From contig JAFDWH010000006.1 of the NCBI GenBank assembly GCA_018268595.1, forward strand, positions 1-49,475: DNA of 49,475 bases, read 5' to 3'. How positions within the stretch are numbered: the first letter of the stretch is position 1; the number at the start of each line of letters is the position of its first letter. The notes under the pieces were generated by a model, which saw only the letters and a list, made by a program, of their open reading frames with translations, made no database searches and had not been told where the DNA came from. Shown in pieces: positions 15,657 to 48,720 of this stretch. The DNA comes from Actinomycetota bacterium. GTDB taxonomy: Bacteria > Actinomycetota > Thermoleophilia > Solirubrobacterales > Solirubrobacteraceae. The translations under genes and the position numbers were made by a program.

Positions 15657-17537
15657 ATGGCGGAGGAGCGCTGCCCGCCGATCGCGGACTACGGGCTGAT
15701 CGGCGACTGCCGCTCGGCGGCGCTCGTGTCGACCGCGGGCGCGATCGACTGGTGCTGCCTGCCGCGGATGGACCAGGGGAGCTGCTTCGGGCGACTGCTC
15801 GACTGGAAGCGCGGCGGCTGCTGCACGGTGGCGCCCGCCGGGCCGGCCCGCACCCGCCGCCGCTACCTCGACGGCACGCTCGTGCTGGAGACGCGGCTCG
15901 CCTGCGAGGCCGGCGAGGTGCGGCTGCTGGACTGCTTCGCCGTCGCGCCGGGGGAGGAGGCCGGCCCCCGCTCGCAGCTCCTGCGGATCGTCGAGGGCGT
16001 GCGGGGCGCGGTGACGTTGGAGGTGCGCGTGGCGCCGCGCTTCGACTACGGCGAGCTGCCGCCGTGGATCCGCGACCACGGCGGTGGGACGTTCAGCGCG
16101 ACCGGCGGCGACGACGCGCTGCTGATCTCCGGCGACCTGCCGTTGGAGGCGCGCAAGCACGAGCTGTGCGCTCGCTTGGAGCTGTGCGAGGGCGAGCGGC
16201 GGCGGCTGTCGATCGAGCATGTCGATCCGGTGCTGGTGGACGAGCGCCCGCGCGCGCAGGAGGACGCCGCCGCGCTCGACGCGCGCCTCGATGCGACGGT
16301 CGCGTGGTGGCGCGAGTGGTCCTCGCGTGCGAGCCCTGAGGCGCGGGAGGCGGGCGTGCTGCGCTCCACGCTCGTGCTGAAGGCGCTCGCCAACCCGGCG
16401 ACGGGGGCGATCGCCGCCGCGCCGACGACCTCGCTGCCGGAGGTCGACGGCGGCGACCTCAACTGGGACTACCGCTTCAGTTGGGTGCGCGACTCGACCT
16501 TCACCGTGCGCTCGCTCGCGGAGGTCGGCTACGACGACGAGGCGGACGCGTTCCGCCGCTTCGTCGAGCGCAGCGCCGCCGGCAGCGCCGAGGGCGTGCA
16601 GGTGATGTTCGGCCTCGGCGGCGAGCGGCGGCTGGGGGAGGTCACGCTCGAGCTGGCGGGCTACCGCGGCGCACGACCGGTGCGGGTCGGCAACTCAGCG
16701 GCCGACCAGTGCCAGCTCGGCGTCTACGGCCAGCTCCTCGAGCTCGCGTGGCGTTGGCATCTGCGCGATCACCGGCCGGACGACGACTACTGGCGCTTCC
16801 TCGTCGACGTCGCCGACGCGGCGGCGGCGCGCTGGCGCGAGCCGGACCGCGGCATCTGGGAGGTGCGCGGCGATCCGCGCCACTTCGTGCACTCGAAGGC
16901 GATGTGCTGGGCGGGGCTCGACCGCGCGATTCGCCTGGCCGAGGACACCGGGCGCGAGGCGCCGCTCGAACGCTGGGCCGCCGAGCGCGACGCGGCGCGG
17001 GAGGCGATCGAGTCCGACGGCTACGACGCTGCGCGCAGAACATTCGTGCAGGCGTTCGGCGACGGGCGCCTCGACGCCGCGTTGCTGCTGCTGCCGACGG
17101 TCGGCTTCGTGGAGTGGGACGACGAGCGGATGGTCGGCACCGCCGACGCGATCCGCGAGGAGCTGGACGCGGACGGCCTGCTGCTGCGCTACCGCGTCGA
17201 GGCGGACGAGGAGCACGAGGGCGCCTTCCTCGCCTGCTCCTTCTGGCTCGCCGAGTGCCTCGCGCACCAGGGCCGCGCCGACGAGGCCGCCGCGGTCTTC
17301 GAGCGCGCCGCCGGCTGCGCGAACGACCTCGGCCTCTTCTCCGAGGAGGCCGACCCGCGCACCGGCGAGCTGCTCGGCAACTTCCCCCAGGGCCTGACCC
17401 ACCTCGCCCACATCTCCGCCGCGCTCGCGCTCGCGGGGGCGAACTCCGCGATCACTGCACCTCTTACCTCGGTATGCGAGGCAAAAGATGCAGTGATCCG
17501 ATCGGGGCGCTTGCGGAGCGGCAGCACGGGATCGTGA
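15657..17537 (+). CDS. GH15-family glucoamylase/trehalase-like glycosidase
   Basis: A 626-residue protein with the N-terminal beta-sandwich domain of bacterial GH15 enzymes (IADYGLIGDCRSAALVSTAG, then IDWCCLPRMD) and the (alpha/alpha)6 catalytic barrel from about 255: NWDYRFSWVRDSTF, VRVGNSAADQCQLGVYGQLLE and HSKAMCWAGLDRA. Actinobacterial relatives include both glucoamylases and trehalases, so the substrate is uncertain. The catalytic domain normally ends near LTHLAHISAALALA. Here about 28 more residues follow and are encoded by the 49-bp palindrome at 17450 and the start of the next gene, which the GH15 frame overlaps by 64 bases. Confidence 0.85.
   Translation: MAEERCPPIADYGLIGDCRSAALVSTAGAIDWCCLPRMDQGSCFGRLLDWKRGGCCTVAPAGPARTRRRYLDGTLVLETRLACEAGEVRLLDCFAVAPGEEAGPRSQLLRIVEGVRGAVTLEVRVAPRFDYGELPPWIRDHGGGTFSATGGDDALLISGDLPLEARKHELCARLELCEGERRRLSIEHVDPVLVDERPRAQEDAAALDARLDATVAWWREWSSRASPEAREAGVLRSTLVLKALANPATGAIAAAPTTSLPEVDGGDLNWDYRFSWVRDSTFTVRSLAEVGYDDEADAFRRFVERSAAGSAEGVQVMFGLGGERRLGEVTLELAGYRGARPVRVGNSAADQCQLGVYGQLLELAWRWHLRDHRPDDDYWRFLVDVADAAAARWREPDRGIWEVRGDPRHFVHSKAMCWAGLDRAIRLAEDTGREAPLERWAAERDAAREAIESDGYDAARRTFVQAFGDGRLDAALLLLPTVGFVEWDDERMVGTADAIREELDADGLLLRYRVEADEEHEGAFLACSFWLAECLAHQGRADEAAAVFERAAGCANDLGLFSEEADPRTGELLGNFPQGLTHLAHISAALALAGANSAITAPLTSVCEAKDAVIRSGRLRSGSTGS
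17450..17498 (+). repeat. 49-bp palindromic element, copy 1 (start of DUF559 gene 1)
   Basis: Outer arms GATCACTGCA and TGCAGTGATC (17450-17459 and 17489-17498) pair perfectly. The inner arms CCTCG and CGAGG (17467-17471, 17477-17481) flank a GTATG centre. Across the element 19 of 24 symmetric positions are complementary. The centre contains the ATG (17474) of the DUF559 gene, and the element also encodes the tail of the GH15 protein. Ungapped, 38 of 49 bases equal the copy inside selB and 28 of 49 equal the copy at 42539. Confidence 0.8.
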
Positions 17538-18382
17538 CGCGGCGGCAGCTCGTCGCGCTGGGCGTGGACGGAAGCGCGATCGACCGGCGGACCGCGCGGG
17601 GGCTGCTGATCCCGCTGCACCGCGGCGTGTTCGCGGTCGGGCATCGCCATGTGACGCTCGAGGGGAGATGGTTGGCGGCGGTGTTGGCGGCCGGGGATGG
17701 CGCGGTGCTGAGCCACCGCGACGCCGCCGCGCTCCACGGGATGCGCAAGCCGCCGGAGTCGCGGAAGGTGAGCGTCACGACGGCCTCGGCGGCGAAGGGG
17801 ACGCAGAGGCTGTGGGTGTACGCGCGTCGAGCGCTCCACGAGGAGGACGTCGCGAGCGTCCGCGGCATCCCGGCCACCAGCCCCGCGCGCACGCTGGTGG
17901 ACCTCGCGCCCATGCTCACCGCCGGGCAGCTCCAGGCGACGTTGGGCGAGGCGGACCGTCGCGGGCTGCTCGAACCGGCCGCGGTCTACCGGGCGCTGCG
18001 TCGCACCAAGGGCCGCCACGGCCCGGGCCACCGGCGCCTCACGGCCGCCCTCGATGCCCATCGGCGGCGCGGCATCACCCTGTTGCGCTCCGAGTTGGAG
18101 GAGCGCTTCCTCGACCTGACGATCGACGCGGGCCTCCCGCAGCCGCGCCTGAACGCCCACGCCGCCGGCTTCGAGGTCGACGCGCTGTGGCCGACCGCGA
18201 GACTCGTCGTCGAGCTGGACGGCTGGGCGCACCACAAGGAGCGCCAGGCGGCGGCGTGGGACCGCGAGAAGAGCAACCGTCTGCAGGCGGCCGGGTACGT
18301 CGTCCTGCGCTTCATGCACGCCGACCTCGTCCACCGGCCGGCGCAGATCGCCGCGGCGATCAGCGACGCGCTCGCGCGATGA
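17474..18382 (+). CDS. AbiEi-type HTH protein with C-terminal DUF559 nuclease domain, copy 1
   Basis: A 302-residue protein. The N-terminus has the AbiEi-like helix-turn-helix GIVTRRQLVALGVDGSAIDR followed by PLHRGVFAVGH. The middle has RGIPATSPARTLVDLA. The C-terminal DUF559/Vsr-like domain shows PD-(D/E)xK-type residues: LRSELEERFLDL, FEVDALWP and VVELDGWAHHKERQ, then GYVVLRFMHADL. It is the same length as, and very similar to, the gene at 42563. The ATG at 17474 lies in the centre of the 49-bp palindrome. Its 3' end overlaps the convergent FAD oxidoreductase gene by 23 bases. The family has been linked to type IV toxin-antitoxin systems, but no toxin gene is adjacent, so a solitary regulator or homing-like nuclease is equally possible. 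Confidence 0.75.
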   Translation: MRGKRCSDPIGALAERQHGIVTRRQLVALGVDGSAIDRRTARGLLIPLHRGVFAVGHRHVTLEGRWLAAVLAAGDGAVLSHRDAAALHGMRKPPESRKVSVTTASAAKGTQRLWVYARRALHEEDVASVRGIPATSPARTLVDLAPMLTAGQLQATLGEADRRGLLEPAAVYRALRRTKGRHGPGHRRLTAALDAHRRRGITLLRSELEERFLDLTIDAGLPQPRLNAHAAGFEVDALWPTARLVVELDGWAHHKERQAAAWDREKSNRLQAAGYVVLRFMHADLVHRPAQIAAAISDALAR

Positions 18383-30591: not shown

Positions 30592-31626
30592 ATGACCGCG
30601 CTCGAGCCCGCAGGCGTCCCGCTCACCGCGCTGGCCGCCGGCGCCGGCTGCGGCTGCAAGCTGCCCGCGGCCGAGCTGCTGCCGATCGTGCGGGCGCTGC
30701 CGGCGCAGCCCGACCCGCGCCTGCTGGTGGGCGCCGCGACGAGCGACGACGCGGCGGTCGTGCGCGTGCGCGAGGACCTCGCGCTGGTGCAGACGGTCGA
30801 CTTCTTCACGCCGCTCGTCGACGACCCGTACGACTTCGGGCGGATCGCGGCCGCGAACGCGCTGTCGGACGTGTACGCGATGGGCGGGACGCCGCTGAGC
30901 GCCCTGAACGTCGTCGCGTTCCCGTTGGAGCGGCTCGGCGGCGAGCTGCTGGCGGCGGTCCTGCGCGGCGGGCTCGACGTCGTCGTCGCAGCCGGCGCGG
31001 TGCTGGCCGGCGGCCACTCGATCGACGACGCCGAGCCGAAGTACGGGCTGGCCGTGACCGGCGTCGTCGACCCGGCGCGGCTGCTGACCAACGCCGGGGG
31101 GCGCGCCGGCGACGCGCTCGTGCTGACGAAGCCGCTCGGGGTCGGCGCCGTCGTCGCCGCGCGCAAGCGCGGGCTCGCCGGCGACGCGCTGCTGGCGGAC
31201 GCGGTCGCGACGATGACGGAGCTGAACGCCGCGGCCTCGCGCGCGGCGCTCGCGGCCGGCGCGCACGCCGCCACCGACGTGACCGGCTTCGGGCTGCTCG
31301 GCCACCTCCACCACCTGTGCCGCGAGAGCGGGCTCGCCGCCGAGCTGGAGGCGGAGGCGGTGCCGGCGCTCGACGGCGTCGAGGAGCTGCTGCAGGGCGA
31401 GCAGCCGCCCGGCGGCTCCGGCGGCAGCCGCCGCAACGCCGCGTGGGCCGAGTCGTTCACGAGCTGCGCGTACGGCGTGGCCGGCTGGCGGCGGCGGCTC
31501 GTGGTCGACGCGACGACGTCGGGCGGGCTGCTCGTCGCGCTGGCGCCGGAGGCCGCGGACGACGTCCCCGGCGTCGTGGTCGGGCGGCTGCTCGACGGCC
31601 CGGCGGGGACGATCCGCGTGCGATGA
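30592..31626 (+). CDS. selD: selenide, water dikinase (selenophosphate synthetase)
   Basis: A 344-residue SelD that makes selenophosphate from selenide and ATP. The N-terminal catalytic loop is GAGCGCK with C20, C22 and K23; the position that is Sec in some SelD proteins is Cys here. The glycine-rich and acidic motifs include TSDDAAV, NALSDVYAMGG, GGHSIDDAEPKYGLAVTG and HAATDVTGFGLLGH. GGAG lies five bases before the ATG. It is the first gene of selD-selC-selB-selA; tRNA-Sec starts 46 bases after the stop. Confidence 0.93.
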   Translation: MTALEPAGVPLTALAAGAGCGCKLPAAELLPIVRALPAQPDPRLLVGAATSDDAAVVRVREDLALVQTVDFFTPLVDDPYDFGRIAAANALSDVYAMGGTPLSALNVVAFPLERLGGELLAAVLRGGLDVVVAAGAVLAGGHSIDDAEPKYGLAVTGVVDPARLLTNAGGRAGDALVLTKPLGVGAVVAARKRGLAGDALLADAVATMTELNAAASRAALAAGAHAATDVTGFGLLGHLHHLCRESGLAAELEAEAVPALDGVEELLQGEQPPGGSGGSRRNAAWAESFTSCAYGVAGWRRRLVVDATTSGGLLVALAPEAADDVPGVVVGRLLDGPAGTIRVR

Positions 31627-31672: not shown

Positions 31673-31764
31673 GGAGCGGCCCGGGGCCGGTGCCCCGAAC
31701 GGCCTTCAAAGCCGTCGGCGGCGCGCTTCCCGCGCCGGGAAGGTTCGACTCCTTCGCCGCTCCG
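31673..31764 (+). tRNA. selC: tRNA-Sec (anticodon TCA)
   Basis: A 92-base selenocysteine tRNA. The eight-base-pair acceptor stem is GGAGCGGC (31673-31680) with GCCGCTCC, longer than normal tRNAs. The D arm has a six-pair stem and four-base loop, CGGGGC-CGGT-GCCCCG. The anticodon arm is ACGGC-CTTCAAA-GCCGT with TCA at 31706-31708. A long variable arm has stem GGCGCG/CGCGCC. The T arm is GAAGG-TTCGACT-CCTTC. The discriminator is G at 31764 and no CCA is encoded. These are the hallmarks of bacterial tRNA-Sec. It lies between selD and selB. Confidence 0.95.
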
Positions 31765-31801: not shown

Positions 31802-33349
31802 GTGAGCGCCGGCCCGCTCACGCTCGGCACCGCCGGCCACGTCGACCACGGCAAGACCGCGCTCGTCGCCGCGCTCACCGGCGTGGACATGGACCGCCTG
31901 CCGGAGGAGCGTGCGCGCGGGCTGACGATCGCGCTCGGCTATGCGCCGCTGACACTGCCCTCCGGCCGGCGGCTGTCGGTCGTGGACGTGCCCGGCCACG
32001 AGCGCTTCGTGCGCACGATGGTCGCGGGCGCGAGCGGGATCGACGCGTTCCTGATGGTCGTCGCGGCCGACGACGGCGTGATGCCGCAGACGGTCGAGCA
32101 CGCGGAGGTCCTCCACGCGTTGGGCGTGGCGGACGGCGTGGTCGCCGTCACGAAGGCCGACGCGGCGGACCCGGCGCGCGCGGTCGCGGAGGCGCGCGAG
32201 CTGCTCGGACCGGGCGTGCCCGTCGTGGCGTGCTCGGCGCGGACCGGGATGGGCATCGAGGAGCTGCGCGCGGCGCTCGACCGGCTCGCGTCTGTGCTCG
32301 CCAGCCGCGCGGCGGCCGGCGGGCCGGCGCGGCTGCACGTCGACCGCGCCTTCACCGTCACCGGCCGCGGCACGGTCGTCACCGGCACGCTGTGGTCGGG
32401 CGCGCTCGCCGCCGGCGACGCGCTGGAGCTGCTGCGCCCGGGGCGGGGCGCGCTGGCGGTGCGGGTGCGTGGCTTGCAGGTGCACGACGAGCAGCGCGAC
32501 CGCGCCGAGGCGGGCCAGCGCGTCGCGGTCAACCTGCTCGGCGCGCGCGTGGCGGACGTCGCGCGCGGCGACGTGCTGGCCGCGCCCGGCGCCGTGTCCG
32601 AGGCGCGGATCCTGGACTGCGCGCTCGCGCTGCGCGACGCGCCCGCCTCACGTGGTGCGCGCGTGCAGATCCATCACGGCGCGCGCGACGTGCCCGGCCG
32701 CCTCGCGCCGCTCGACCCCGACGACGGCCTGTGGCAGCTCCGACTCGAGGCGCCTTTGCTCGCGCTCGACGGCGACCGCCTCGTCGTGCGCCGCCTCGCG
32801 CCGCCCGACACGCTCGGCGGCGGCGTCGTGCTCGACGCGCGCGCCGGCCGCCACGGCGCGCGGCCCGAGATCGTCGCGCGCCTGCGCGCGCTCGCGCGCG
32901 GGGAGCCGGCGCGACGCGCGCCGCGGCTCGAGCACTGCGTCTCTGACCTCGCTATGCGAGGCGAGATCGGCAGTGCTCCGCCGGCCGCGGCGCTCGCCGC
33001 GCTGGAGCAGCGCCTGCGCGCCGCCGGCCCGGCGCTGCTGTCGGAGGCGCAGATGACGGGGGAGGAGGACGCGCTGCGCGCGCTGCGCGCCGACGGGCGG
33101 GCGGTCCGCGTGAGCGGGCGGCTGTACGCGCACGCCGACGTGGCGGCCGACGTGGGCGAGCGGATCGTCGCGCTGCTCGAGCGCGACGGCCCGCTCGGGC
33201 TCGCCGCCGTGCGCGACGCGCTCGGCCTCTCGCGCAAGAGCGCGCAGGCGTTCCTGGAGCAGCTCGACGCCGCGCGGGTCACGCGGCGCCTGCCGGACGA
33301 CCGCCGCGAGCTGGTCCGCCGGTCCGCGCACGCCGGAGCGCGCGCATGA
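31802..33349 (+). CDS. selB: selenocysteine-specific elongation factor
   Basis: A 515-residue SelB. The GTPase motifs are AGHVDHGKT (11-19), DVPGH (62-66) and TKAD (117-120). EF-Tu-like domains II and III run to about residue 375, including the GGGVVLDARAGRHG segment. The C-terminal part that binds the SECIS RNA has only about 120 residues, with the last winged helix recognisable in LLERDGPLGLAAVRDALG. Characterised SelB proteins have four winged helices and are longer, so the first two may be missing. A 49-bp palindrome encodes residues ~377-393 at exactly that junction, in frame. GTG start; stop overlaps selA (ATGA). Confidence 0.92.
   Translation: MSAGPLTLGTAGHVDHGKTALVAALTGVDMDRLPEERARGLTIALGYAPLTLPSGRRLSVVDVPGHERFVRTMVAGASGIDAFLMVVAADDGVMPQTVEHAEVLHALGVADGVVAVTKADAADPARAVAEARELLGPGVPVVACSARTGMGIEELRAALDRLASVLASRAAAGGPARLHVDRAFTVTGRGTVVTGTLWSGALAAGDALELLRPGRGALAVRVRGLQVHDEQRDRAEAGQRVAVNLLGARVADVARGDVLAAPGAVSEARILDCALALRDAPASRGARVQIHHGARDVPGRLAPLDPDDGLWQLRLEAPLLALDGDRLVVRRLAPPDTLGGGVVLDARAGRHGARPEIVARLRALARGEPARRAPRLEHCVSDLAMRGEIGSAPPAAALAALEQRLRAAGPALLSEAQMTGEEDALRALRADGRAVRVSGRLYAHADVAADVGERIVALLERDGPLGLAAVRDALGLSRKSAQAFLEQLDAARVTRRLPDDRRELVRRSAHAGARA
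32930..32978 (+). repeat. 49-bp palindromic element, copy inside selB
   Basis: Outer arms GAGCACTGC/GCAGTGCTC (32930-32938, 32970-32978), inner arms CCTCG/CGAGG (32947-32951, 32957-32961) around CTATG. 18 of 24 symmetric positions are complementary. It is translated in frame as part of SelB (EHCVSDLAMRGEIGS). Relative to copy 1, position 3 changes T to G and its partner at position 47 changes A to C, so pairing is kept. There is no obvious target-site duplication. Confidence 0.78.
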
Positions 33350-34782: not shown

Positions 34783-34792
34783 GTCTATGGGC

Positions 34793-36064
34793 ATGGGCTA
34801 CCACCGCCGCATCCTCGACGACGAGCTGGATGACCTGACGCGTGCCTTGCCGGCGATCGCGCTGGAGGGTGCGAAAGGCGTCGGCAAGACCGCGACCGCG
34901 TCGCAGCGGGCGCGCAGCGTCCACCGCCTCGACGAGCCCGCGACACGTGCGATCGCGCAGGCCGACCTCGCCCGACTGCTCGTCACGCCCGCGCCGGTGC
35001 TCGTGGACGAGTGGCAGTACGTGCCGCCGGTCTGGGACAGCGTCCGCCGAGCCGTCGACGCCGGCGCCGCGCCGGGCAGCTTCCTGCTCACGGGCTCGGC
35101 ATCGCCGCGCGACACCGGAGCCCACTCTGGTGGCGGGCGGATCGTCAGCCTGCGCATGCGGCCGCTGTCGCTGGCGGAGCGCTACCCCGGCACCGCGGCC
35201 GTGAGTCTGGCGACGCTGCTGGAGGGAGAGCGCCCCCCGCTCGACGGCCGCACCGACTGCGGGCTCGTCGACTACGTGGAGGAGATCCTGCACTCTGGCT
35301 TCCCCGGCATCCAGGACCTTCGTGGGCGTCCTCTGCGCGCACAGCTCGACGGCTACCTGGCACGGATCGTGGACCGCGACTTCGCCGACCTGGGGCATCC
35401 GCTGCGCAATCCGAGCGCGCTCCGCCGCTGGATGACCGCCTACGCCGCCGCGACGGCGACGACGACGTCGTTCGAGAAGATCCGCGACGCGTCGACTGGC
35501 GGACACGACGCCAAGCCGGCGCGCACGACCGTCCAGCCGTATCGCGACGTCCTGGAGCGCCTGTTCATGCTCGACGAGGTGCCCGGCTGGAAGCCGTCGC
35601 GCAACCACATCGCGGAGTTAGGCCTCCCGCCGAAGCATCACCTCGCCGATCCGGCGCTTGCGGCGCGCCTGCTCGGCGCCACCGCCGACACGCTGCTGGA
35701 GGGGCAGGCGCCCGGTCCGCCGGTCGTGCGCGACGGCACGCTCCTCGGCGCGCTGTTCGAGTCGCTCGTCACGCTGTCCGTGCGCGTCTACGCGCAGGCC
35801 GCCGAGGCGCGCGTCGGTCACCTGCGCACGCACCGCGGTGCACACGAGATCGACCTCGTGGTCGAGCGCGCGGACGGCCGCGTCGTCGCGATCGAGGTGA
35901 AGCTCGCCGCCACGCCGCAGGACGCGGACGTCAAGCAACTCGAGTGGCTGCGCGGACGCCTCGGCGACGAGCTGCTCGACGCCGTGGTCGTGACGACCGG
36001 TCGCGAGTCCTACCGGCGGCCGGACGGCATCGCCGTCGTGCCCGCGGCGTTGCTCGGGCCGTGA
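34793..36064 (+). CDS. AAA-family ATPase with C-terminal DUF4143 domain
   Basis: A 423-residue protein. The Walker A motif is EGAKGVGKTA (25-34), Walker B is VLVDEWQ (69-75), and sensor-like LLTGSASP follows. The C-terminal DUF4143 region, VVRDGTLLGALFESLV with RTHRGAHEIDLVVER and AIEVKLAATPQDADV, has the E-D-ExK pattern of a restriction-endonuclease fold. Such ATPases are common, often mobile, and of uncertain function; a defence or toxin-antitoxin link has been proposed. I choose the second ATG (34793) because the -10 box directly abuts the first (34787), which suggests a leaderless mRNA. It is convergent with the formate dehydrogenase operon. Confidence 0.75.
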   Translation: MGYHRRILDDELDDLTRALPAIALEGAKGVGKTATASQRARSVHRLDEPATRAIAQADLARLLVTPAPVLVDEWQYVPPVWDSVRRAVDAGAAPGSFLLTGSASPRDTGAHSGGGRIVSLRMRPLSLAERYPGTAAVSLATLLEGERPPLDGRTDCGLVDYVEEILHSGFPGIQDLRGRPLRAQLDGYLARIVDRDFADLGHPLRNPSALRRWMTAYAAATATTTSFEKIRDASTGGHDAKPARTTVQPYRDVLERLFMLDEVPGWKPSRNHIAELGLPPKHHLADPALAARLLGATADTLLEGQAPGPPVVRDGTLLGALFESLVTLSVRVYAQAAEARVGHLRTHRGAHEIDLVVERADGRVVAIEVKLAATPQDADVKQLEWLRGRLGDELLDAVVVTTGRESYRRPDGIAVVPAALLGP

Positions 36065-42538: not shown

Positions 42539-42587
42539 GATGACTGTCCCTCTTCATACCTCGTGCGTACTCAGACGGACAGTGATC
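42539..42587 (+). repeat. 49-bp palindromic element, copy 3 (start of DUF559 gene 2)
   Basis: Outer arms GATGACTGTCC and GGACAGTGATC (42539-42549, 42577-42587) pair at 10 of 11 positions; overall 16 of 24 symmetric positions are complementary. The inner CCTCG/CGAGG stem of the other copies is lost. Positions 9/41 (C-G to T-A) and 10/40 (A-T to C-G) differ from copy 1 by paired changes. The GTG (42563) of the DUF559 gene lies at the centre. It occupies most of the 64-bp gap to the divergent fdhA. Confidence 0.7.
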
Positions 42588-43471
42588 CGATCTCGGCGCT
42601 GGCCGAGCAGCAGTACGGGGTGGTCGCGCGACGGCAACTGCTCGACTTGGGCGTTACGCAGAGGGCGATCCAGGGACGCCTCTCTCGCGGAATCTTCATC
42701 CCGCTCCATCGCGACGTCTACGCATACGGGCACCGCCAACTGCGCCTCGAGGGGAGATGGCTGGCGGCGGTGTTGGCCGCCGGAGACGGCGCCGTGCTGA
42801 GCCACCGCGACGCCGCCGCGCTGCACGGGATGCGCAAGCCGCCGGACTCGCGGAAGGTGAGCGTAAGCGCGCCGACGCATCGGCGGGAGATCGCCGGCGT
42901 CTGGCTGTACGCACGACGCCAGCTCACCGCAGAAGACGTCACGAACGTCAAGGGCATCCCCACCACCAGCCCAGCACGCACGCTGGTCAACCTCGCGCCG
43001 ATGTTGACCGCGGGGCAACTCCAGGCGACGCTCGGGGAGGCAGACCGAAGAGGGCTCCTCGACGTCCGCGCGACAGCGCGGGCGCTGCGTCGCACCAAGG
43101 GCCGCCACGGCCCGGGCCACGAGCGCCTCTCGGCCGCCCTCGTTGCCCATCAGCAGCGCGGCATCACCCTGGTGCGCTCGGAGTTGGAGGAGCGCTTCCT
43201 CGATCTGATCATCAAGGCCCGCCTCCCACAGCCCGCGCTGAACGCCACGACGGCCGGCTACCAGGTCGACGCCCTCTGGCCGACCGCAAGACTCGTCGTC
43301 GAGCTGGACGGCTGGGCGCACCACAAGGAGCGCCAAGCCGCTGCTCAGGACCGCGACAAGACGAACAGACTCCAACTCGCGGGGTACAGGGTCCTGCGCT
43401 TCATGCACGCCGACCTCGTCCACCGGCCGGCGCAGACCGCCGCAACGATCCGCGCCGCGCTCAGCGGTTGA
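42563..43471 (+). CDS. AbiEi-type HTH protein with C-terminal DUF559 nuclease domain, copy 2
   Basis: A 302-residue paralogue of the gene at 17474 and exactly the same length. Domains match: N-terminal helix-turn-helix GVVARRQLLDLGVTQRAIQ, RGIFIPLHRDVYAYGH, GIPTTSPARTLVNLA, and a C-terminal nuclease-like part with ELEERFLDL, YQVDALWP and VVELDGWAHHKERQ. Long DNA stretches, for example 42749-42866 against 17660-17777, are nearly identical, so duplication or gene conversion is recent compared with other divergence. It starts within a 49-bp palindrome, diverges from fdhA, and overlaps the convergent TPP-enzyme gene by 11 bases. Confidence 0.75.
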   Translation: MRTQTDSDPISALAEQQYGVVARRQLLDLGVTQRAIQGRLSRGIFIPLHRDVYAYGHRQLRLEGRWLAAVLAAGDGAVLSHRDAAALHGMRKPPDSRKVSVSAPTHRREIAGVWLYARRQLTAEDVTNVKGIPTTSPARTLVNLAPMLTAGQLQATLGEADRRGLLDVRATARALRRTKGRHGPGHERLSAALVAHQQRGITLVRSELEERFLDLIIKARLPQPALNATTAGYQVDALWPTARLVVELDGWAHHKERQAAAQDRDKTNRLQLAGYRVLRFMHADLVHRPAQTAATIRAALSG

Positions 43472-47956: not shown

Positions 47957-48720
47957 GCGCTCGGCTCGCCTCGCTCGTCCGGCAGCAGCAGCGGCGGCCC
48001 GGGCGGGCCTTCGGCCCGCCGCAGCAGGCGGTCGACGAGCCGCGTCACGAGCGTGTCGGCGCCGACCGTCTGGGCGCGCGCCGCGTCGAGCGCCGCGCTC
48101 GCGAAGCCGCTCGTCGAGCGCGCGACGATCGTGCCCAGCTCGGTCTCCTCGACGACCGCGTCGACGTCGACGCGCTGCACGACCGCGTTGACGTCGATGC
48201 GCGCGGCGATCGCGTCCACGTCGATCCGCGCGATCAGCGCGTCCATGTCGACGCCGGCGAGCAGCGCGTCGAGGTCCATCCGCTCCAGCAGCGCGTTCAC
48301 GTCCGTGCGCGCGAGCAGCGCGTCGAGGTCGACCTGCGCGACGACCGCGCCGACGTCGACCCGCCGCACGATCGCCTCCACGTCGAGCAGCTCGACGACC
48401 GCGGGCACGAGCCGCTCGAGCGCCCGCTGCGCCTGCGCGACGGTGCGGCGCCGCACGCGCACGCCGTCCGCCGCGAACGGGCGCGCCGCGGCCGACAGCG
48501 CGTCGCCGGCGACGCGCGCGCCCGGCAACGCGTCCGCGACCCGTGCGCCGAGCCGCAACGCCCCGCCGGCCGCCGCGCCGACGCGCTGCGCCATGCGGGC
48601 GGCGCGCGTCCCCGCACCGAGCGCGAGGTCGGCCGCGAGCATCAGCTCGCGAGGGACGCCGCGCGTGCCGAGCGGCACGAGCTGCGTCCCGGGGGATCCG
48701 TGGGACGCGTCGTCGTCCAT
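47953..48720 (-). CDS. nonapeptide-repeat protein of unknown function
   Basis: A 255-residue protein whose middle (about residues 110-205) consists of about ten tandem nine-residue units of the form (V/I/T/M)-D-(V/L/M)-x-A-(I/V/L)-x-x-(R/Q/E), for example VDVGAVVAQ, VDLDALLAR, TDVNALLER, MDLDALLAG, VDMDALIAR, IDVDAIAAR, IDVNAVVQR and VDVDAVVEE. The N-terminus is Ala/Arg-rich and the C-terminus carries a Pro-rich tail. I do not know a named family. The 9-residue rhythm could make a regular solenoid or helical scaffold. ATG at 48720 is chosen; a GTG two codons upstream (48726) is possible. It is coupled to the RDD gene. Confidence 0.7.
   Translation of the reverse strand: MDDDASHGSPGTQLVPLGTRGVPRELMLAADLALGAGTRAARMAQRVGAAAGGALRLGARVADALPGARVAGDALSAAARPFAADGVRVRRRTVAQAQRALERLVPAVVELLDVEAIVRRVDVGAVVAQVDLDALLARTDVNALLERMDLDALLAGVDMDALIARIDVDAIAARIDVNAVVQRVDVDAVVEETELGTIVARSTSGFASAALDAARAQTVGADTLVTRLVDRLLRRAEGPPGPPLLLPDERGEPSA

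Follow-up and report, generated by a model that had tools for sequence, protein, structure and literature searches.

A 49-nucleotide palindrome translated within selB is probably an inserted copy of a dispersed AbiEi-type operator repeat

The window analysed here is a 49,475-nt stretch of DNA (contig JAFDWH010000006.1, positions 1 to 49,475) from a member of the Solirubrobacteraceae, and it carries a selB gene whose coding sequence contains a 49-nt palindrome. The gene belongs to one cluster, selD-tRNA-Sec-selB-selA, with the tRNA-Sec gene (31673-31764) between selD (30592-31626) and selB; a gene for an AAA/DUF4143 ATPase (34787-36064) lies directly 3′ of selA. Elsewhere in the window, two genes for AbiEi-DUF559 proteins have palindromes of the same length at their starts. 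The features on which the analysis turns are as follows.

31802-33349, + strand: selB, 515 amino acids, host gene of the palindrome (TIGR00475, E 4e-90; Pfam domains)
32930-32978, + strand: 49-nt palindrome in selB, encoding residues 377-393 (EHCVSDLAMRGEIGSAP)
17450-17498, + strand: 49-nt palindrome of the same family as the selB copy, at the start of AbiEi-DUF559 gene 1 and also in frame near the C terminus of the upstream GH15 gene
17474-18382, + strand: AbiEi-DUF559 gene 1, 302 amino acids, with its ATG beginning at nucleotide 25 of the palindrome, the centre
42539-42587, + strand: 49-nt palindrome of different sequence, at the start of AbiEi-DUF559 gene 2
42563-43471, + strand: AbiEi-DUF559 gene 2, 302 amino acids, 74% identical to gene 1, with a GTG start at the palindrome centre

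The selB palindrome, GAGCACTGCGTCTCTGACCTCGCTATGCGAGGCGAGATCGGCAGTGCTC, has outer arms of 9 bp that match perfectly, an inner stem of 6 bp and a loop of 3 nt, TAT. The original prediction had placed it at 32930-32978, read in frame as residues 377-393 of SelB, and both the coordinates and the residues are correct: the selB reading frame stays open throughout. Codons 377-393 fall between the domain-III barrel (PF25461, residues 280-348) and the last winged helix (PF09107, residues 458-502). The window contains the pattern GCACTGC-N(25-35)-GCAGTGC once, where shuffled sequences lead us to expect 0, and the folding z-score of the palindrome is -4.5 as RNA (flanks included) and -5.2 as DNA. In a search for known RNA families around the palindrome, tRNA-Sec alone was found.

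The palindrome is not confined to selB. Using a covariance model trained on seven copies, the palindrome of gene 1 among them, together with searches for short stretches, we took a census of the 3.57-Mb genome and found the element at 14 places at E ≤ 1e-3 and at 16 places at E ≤ 0.006, every one of them 49 nt long; an exact 13-nt core occurs at six places. The second copy in the window, at the start of gene 1 (E 2e-14), is identical to the selB palindrome at 38 of 49 bases. Across the 16 copies, two-sided changes are seen in 14 of the 24 arm pairs, and the covariation score of 0.24, compared with 0.13 after shuffling, was reached by 0 of 500 shuffles; both arms therefore change together and the symmetry is maintained. 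This sequence family is matched rarely or not at all in the relatives and has therefore expanded in this lineage.

Placed on a gene map derived from codon usage, 12 of the 16 copies are intergenic, 7 of them between convergent genes and 0 between divergent genes, and about half lie within a few bases of a stop codon. Only about three of the 12 intergenic copies precede a gene start by 100 nt or less. The remaining four lie in coding sequence: in selB, in genes for a Maf nucleotide pyrophosphatase (PF02545, E 5e-42) and a GT2 glycosyltransferase (PF00535), and in the last codons of the GH15 gene that adjoins AbiEi-DUF559 gene 1. Four of the six frames can be read through in most copies, which helps to explain why the element is tolerated in coding sequence; a Pfam search of the alternative open reading frames spanning the copies matched no family.

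Comparison with orthologues indicates how the coding copies arose. The peptide at SelB residues 377-393 is absent from the SelB proteins of 21 relatives, three of which (L020, L025 and L028) end or are frameshifted in or before the linker region, so that the suspicion that the insertion is unique to this lineage is borne out in this sample. The insert in Maf is likewise absent from the Maf proteins of 23 relatives, one of them a fragment that starts past the loop; in these proteins the loop ranges from a few residues to about twelve, and in this genome it is exactly the element (STASFASHTEARGAVV, between AG and VGVD). For the glycosyltransferase, the relatives are too distant for the insertion to be mapped. 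By these alignments, the selB and Maf copies are insertions relative to their orthologues and not ancestral. Some flanking gain or loss had been proposed to preserve the reading frame of selB, and this is plausible, although the varying length of the SelB linker among relatives keeps it from being read in the alignment. Near the Maf gene of another genome (G047), we also noted a strong 55-nt palindrome (AGCGAACCGATCGGG..., L110:2588-2642).

The gene that shares a palindrome with selB encodes a two-part protein. Its N-terminal part is AbiEi-like (PADLOC AbiEi, E 3e-24; Pfam AbiEi_4, E 2.6e-11), and its C-terminal domain is DUF559 (Pfam, E 3.5e-9), a Vsr-like (PDB 3hrl, E 0.002) nuclease domain of the PD-(D/E)XK type. 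A palindrome of about 49 nt stands at the start of all five DUF559 genes in this genome, each of different sequence, and DUF559 proteins are present in 28 of the 41 genomes searched. We then surveyed 88 anchorable AbiEi-DUF559 genes of the order, taking 1019 windows from the same loci as controls. Palindrome scores of at least 10 were found at 41 of the 88 gene starts and in 29 of the 1019 control windows (Fisher p 3e-31). Of the 41 high-scoring start palindromes, 38 share the codon phase of their gene, and 15 have a midpoint that coincides exactly with the first base of the start codon. When 43 start palindromes are centred on their midpoints, pairing runs inward from nucleotides 1 and 49, stops at nucleotides 22 and 28, and is at background level outside the unit. 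Neither AbiEi-DUF559 gene in the window has a gene for an AbiEii nucleotidyltransferase toxin beside it; the neighbours are GH15, an FAD-linked oxidase, a TPP enzyme and a molybdopterin oxidoreductase fragment. The window also holds, at 48115-48409, eight overlapping tandem repeat units with a 27-nt spacing.

This geometry coincides with that of a characterized operator. The AbiEi protein of Streptococcus agalactiae, from the abiE type IV toxin-antitoxin system, binds two inverted 23-bp half-sites spaced by 3 bp, giving a 23-3-23 layout (PMC3985639; PMC7319586); a related case is Rv2827c of Mycobacterium tuberculosis. The length of our palindromes had been measured before we met this layout, so that the match is a check rather than a fit. 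Both the S. agalactiae 'AbiEi box' and the palindromes described here are 49 bp long and imperfectly symmetric, and both lie directly beside the gene for an AbiEi-domain protein (PMC3985639, PMC7319586). The present system differs from abiE in its DUF559 nuclease domain, in lacking an adjacent AbiEii toxin gene and in the dispersal of the site over the genome. The palindrome is thus most likely an AbiEi-type operator, its binding by the protein being putative, and the suggestion that the selB element looks like a regulatory DNA site agrees with its 23-3-23 layout.

Dispersed copies resemble the start palindrome of a gene in their own genome. We compared each solo palindrome, drawn from genomes with a surveyed AbiEi-DUF559 palindrome, with 71 gene-start palindromes; the best match was a resident gene for 20 of 23 solos, where shuffling of the labels gave a mean of 1.4 and 0 of 5000 shuffles as high a count. 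Outside this genome, a resident gene was best for 6 of 9 solos. The pairing is clearest for the solos of genome G002, which agree at 47, 45 and 39 of 49 bases.

Palindromes occur in the selB linkers of other lineages as well. In the nearest relative of this SelB (genome G005, 74% identical), the same linker holds a different 49-nt palindrome, the arms of which occur once in that genome. We considered this palindrome as the cognate of a DUF559 gene in G005 and found no such match. A second 49-nt palindrome in G005, just downstream of selB (L007:3083-3133), agrees at 40 of 49 bases with the palindrome of a resident AbiEi-DUF559 gene. The selB linkers of three further genomes, G014 (L009), G032 (L018) and G021 (L024), hold other palindromes that are repeated in their genomes, with the GGTGCCWGGCACC type at 72 places in G014 and the GGGGTCAGACCCC type at 42 places in G021 and 47 in G032. 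The SelB linker is a hypervariable spacer and, with unrelated repeat palindromes in the linkers of several lineages, a recurrent landing site. The proposal that SelB might use the palindrome finds no support here, given this variability and the presence of the element across the genome, including Maf and the glycosyltransferase. Separately, the linker in selB of G012 (L011) contains a long imperfect palindrome, AAAGGGGGGG...CCCCCCTTT.

We interpret the selB palindrome, with a probability of about 0.68, as an inserted copy of a dispersed, cognate 49-bp AbiEi-type operator repeat, analogous to repetitive extragenic palindromic (REP) elements and their RAYT partners. The dispersal, the insertion relative to orthologues, the 23-3-23 layout, the linkage to AbiEi-DUF559 genes and the cognate pairing within genomes are what we observed directly. 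The parent sites would be those overlapping the start codons of AbiEi-DUF559 genes, where the AbiEi part of the protein probably binds both half-sites and acts as a repressor of its own gene. Each operator would then spread by insertion of its copies, mainly into intergenic positions beside stop codons, with occasional landings in tolerant protein loops such as the SelB linker and the Maf loop. Since the element is open in most of its reading frames, the copies would persist there. That the fused DUF559 nuclease itself drives the spread is more weakly inferred; it is the natural candidate mover, since it accompanies the site and since a search for Y1 transposases, the one class of recombinase covered, found none in this genome.

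Several observations weigh against this interpretation. Roughly one in two of the DUF559 genes surveyed lacks a strong palindrome, and the published AbiEi site lies over a promoter and has a different half-site sequence, whereas the sites here lie over the start codon. The pairing of the 15 solos of this genome is partly circular, as the search model contained the palindrome of gene 1; this does not affect the 9 solos found elsewhere, but 3 of them, including the palindrome in selB of G005, have no resident best match. Neither a target duplication nor an exact empty site could be read in the SelB and Maf orthologues, because the relatives are too distant and the loop lengths vary. Finally, an AlphaFold model of the AbiEi-DUF559 protein had a mean pLDDT of 51, too low to be used.

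The element could instead be a selfish coding palindrome of the type of the Rickettsia palindromic elements (RPEs), spread in trans by another enzyme, with the AbiEi-DUF559 genes having captured or donated the sequence. RPEs, too, are palindromic repeats that lie in frame in conserved proteins as well as between genes (PMC2229807). However, the cognate pairing and the codon-phased sites at dozens of AbiEi-DUF559 starts indicate a specific partner, whereas the part of the RPE account consulted mentions no associated gene and gives lengths of 105-146 bp, compared with 49 nt here; we regard this alternative as unlikely, though still to be reckoned with. A regulon without any mobility, in which the solo palindromes are working operators through which AbiEi-DUF559 controls other genes, selB included, would accord with the operator architecture and the cognate pairing. 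The placement is wrong for operators, with the predominance of convergent over divergent intergenic positions and the scarcity of copies just upstream of starts, and the copies in selB, Maf and the glycosyltransferase gene are far from promoters, with selB and Maf orthologues doing without them. We consider such a regulon improbable. Amplification as bidirectional terminators would suit the copies that lie between convergent genes, often near stop codons, but the unit has no terminal U-run and a length fixed at 49, the copies in selB, Maf and the glycosyltransferase gene would do harm, and those at gene starts would block their own gene, which together make this explanation very improbable.

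A REP element moved by a RAYT, a Y1 HUH transposase, would share the mainly extragenic placement, the short hairpin form and the association of each type with a cognate gene resident in the same genome that characterize the REPIN-RAYT system (PMC3116915). Yet the partner here is an AbiEi-DUF559 protein and not a Y1 transposase, and the unit is one 49-nt operator rather than a REP doublet. Further, Y1_Tnp (PF01797) had 0 matches in this genome and the searched genomes of its genus (G000, G002, G003, G005 and G006); G014 and G032 do have Y1 transposase genes, but the selB palindromes of these genomes are of other sequence classes. We therefore hold a RAYT origin to be scarcely credible. Chance symmetry or a native feature of SelB, for which one might invoke the wealth of weak inverted repeats in a high-GC genome, has a likelihood close to nil: it is refuted by the dispersed copies and the expectation of 0 in shuffles, and it does not accord with the identity to the gene 1 palindrome or with the relatives whose SelB lacks the element.

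If the interpretation as a copied operator is correct, a DNA site of regulatory type has been turned into protein sequence in conserved proteins, and unrelated repeat families have settled independently in the SelB linker. The Vsr-like DUF559 endonuclease domain, its activity predicted, is here fused to an AbiEi-like N terminus, and the papers found to mention both DUF559 and palindromes were, from their titles and abstracts, unrelated. AbiEi-type operators and dispersed cognate palindromes give DUF559 proteins a testable function. More tentatively, AbiEi-DUF559 proteins may be enzymes of a new type that partner miniature mobile DNA, binding their own 49-bp operator by the AbiEi region and copying or moving it by means of the nuclease. 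Were this so, copied operators would sometimes enter genes such as selB and there be translated, and AbiEi-DUF559 would be a second possible gene family, besides the RAYTs, behind REP-like repeats.
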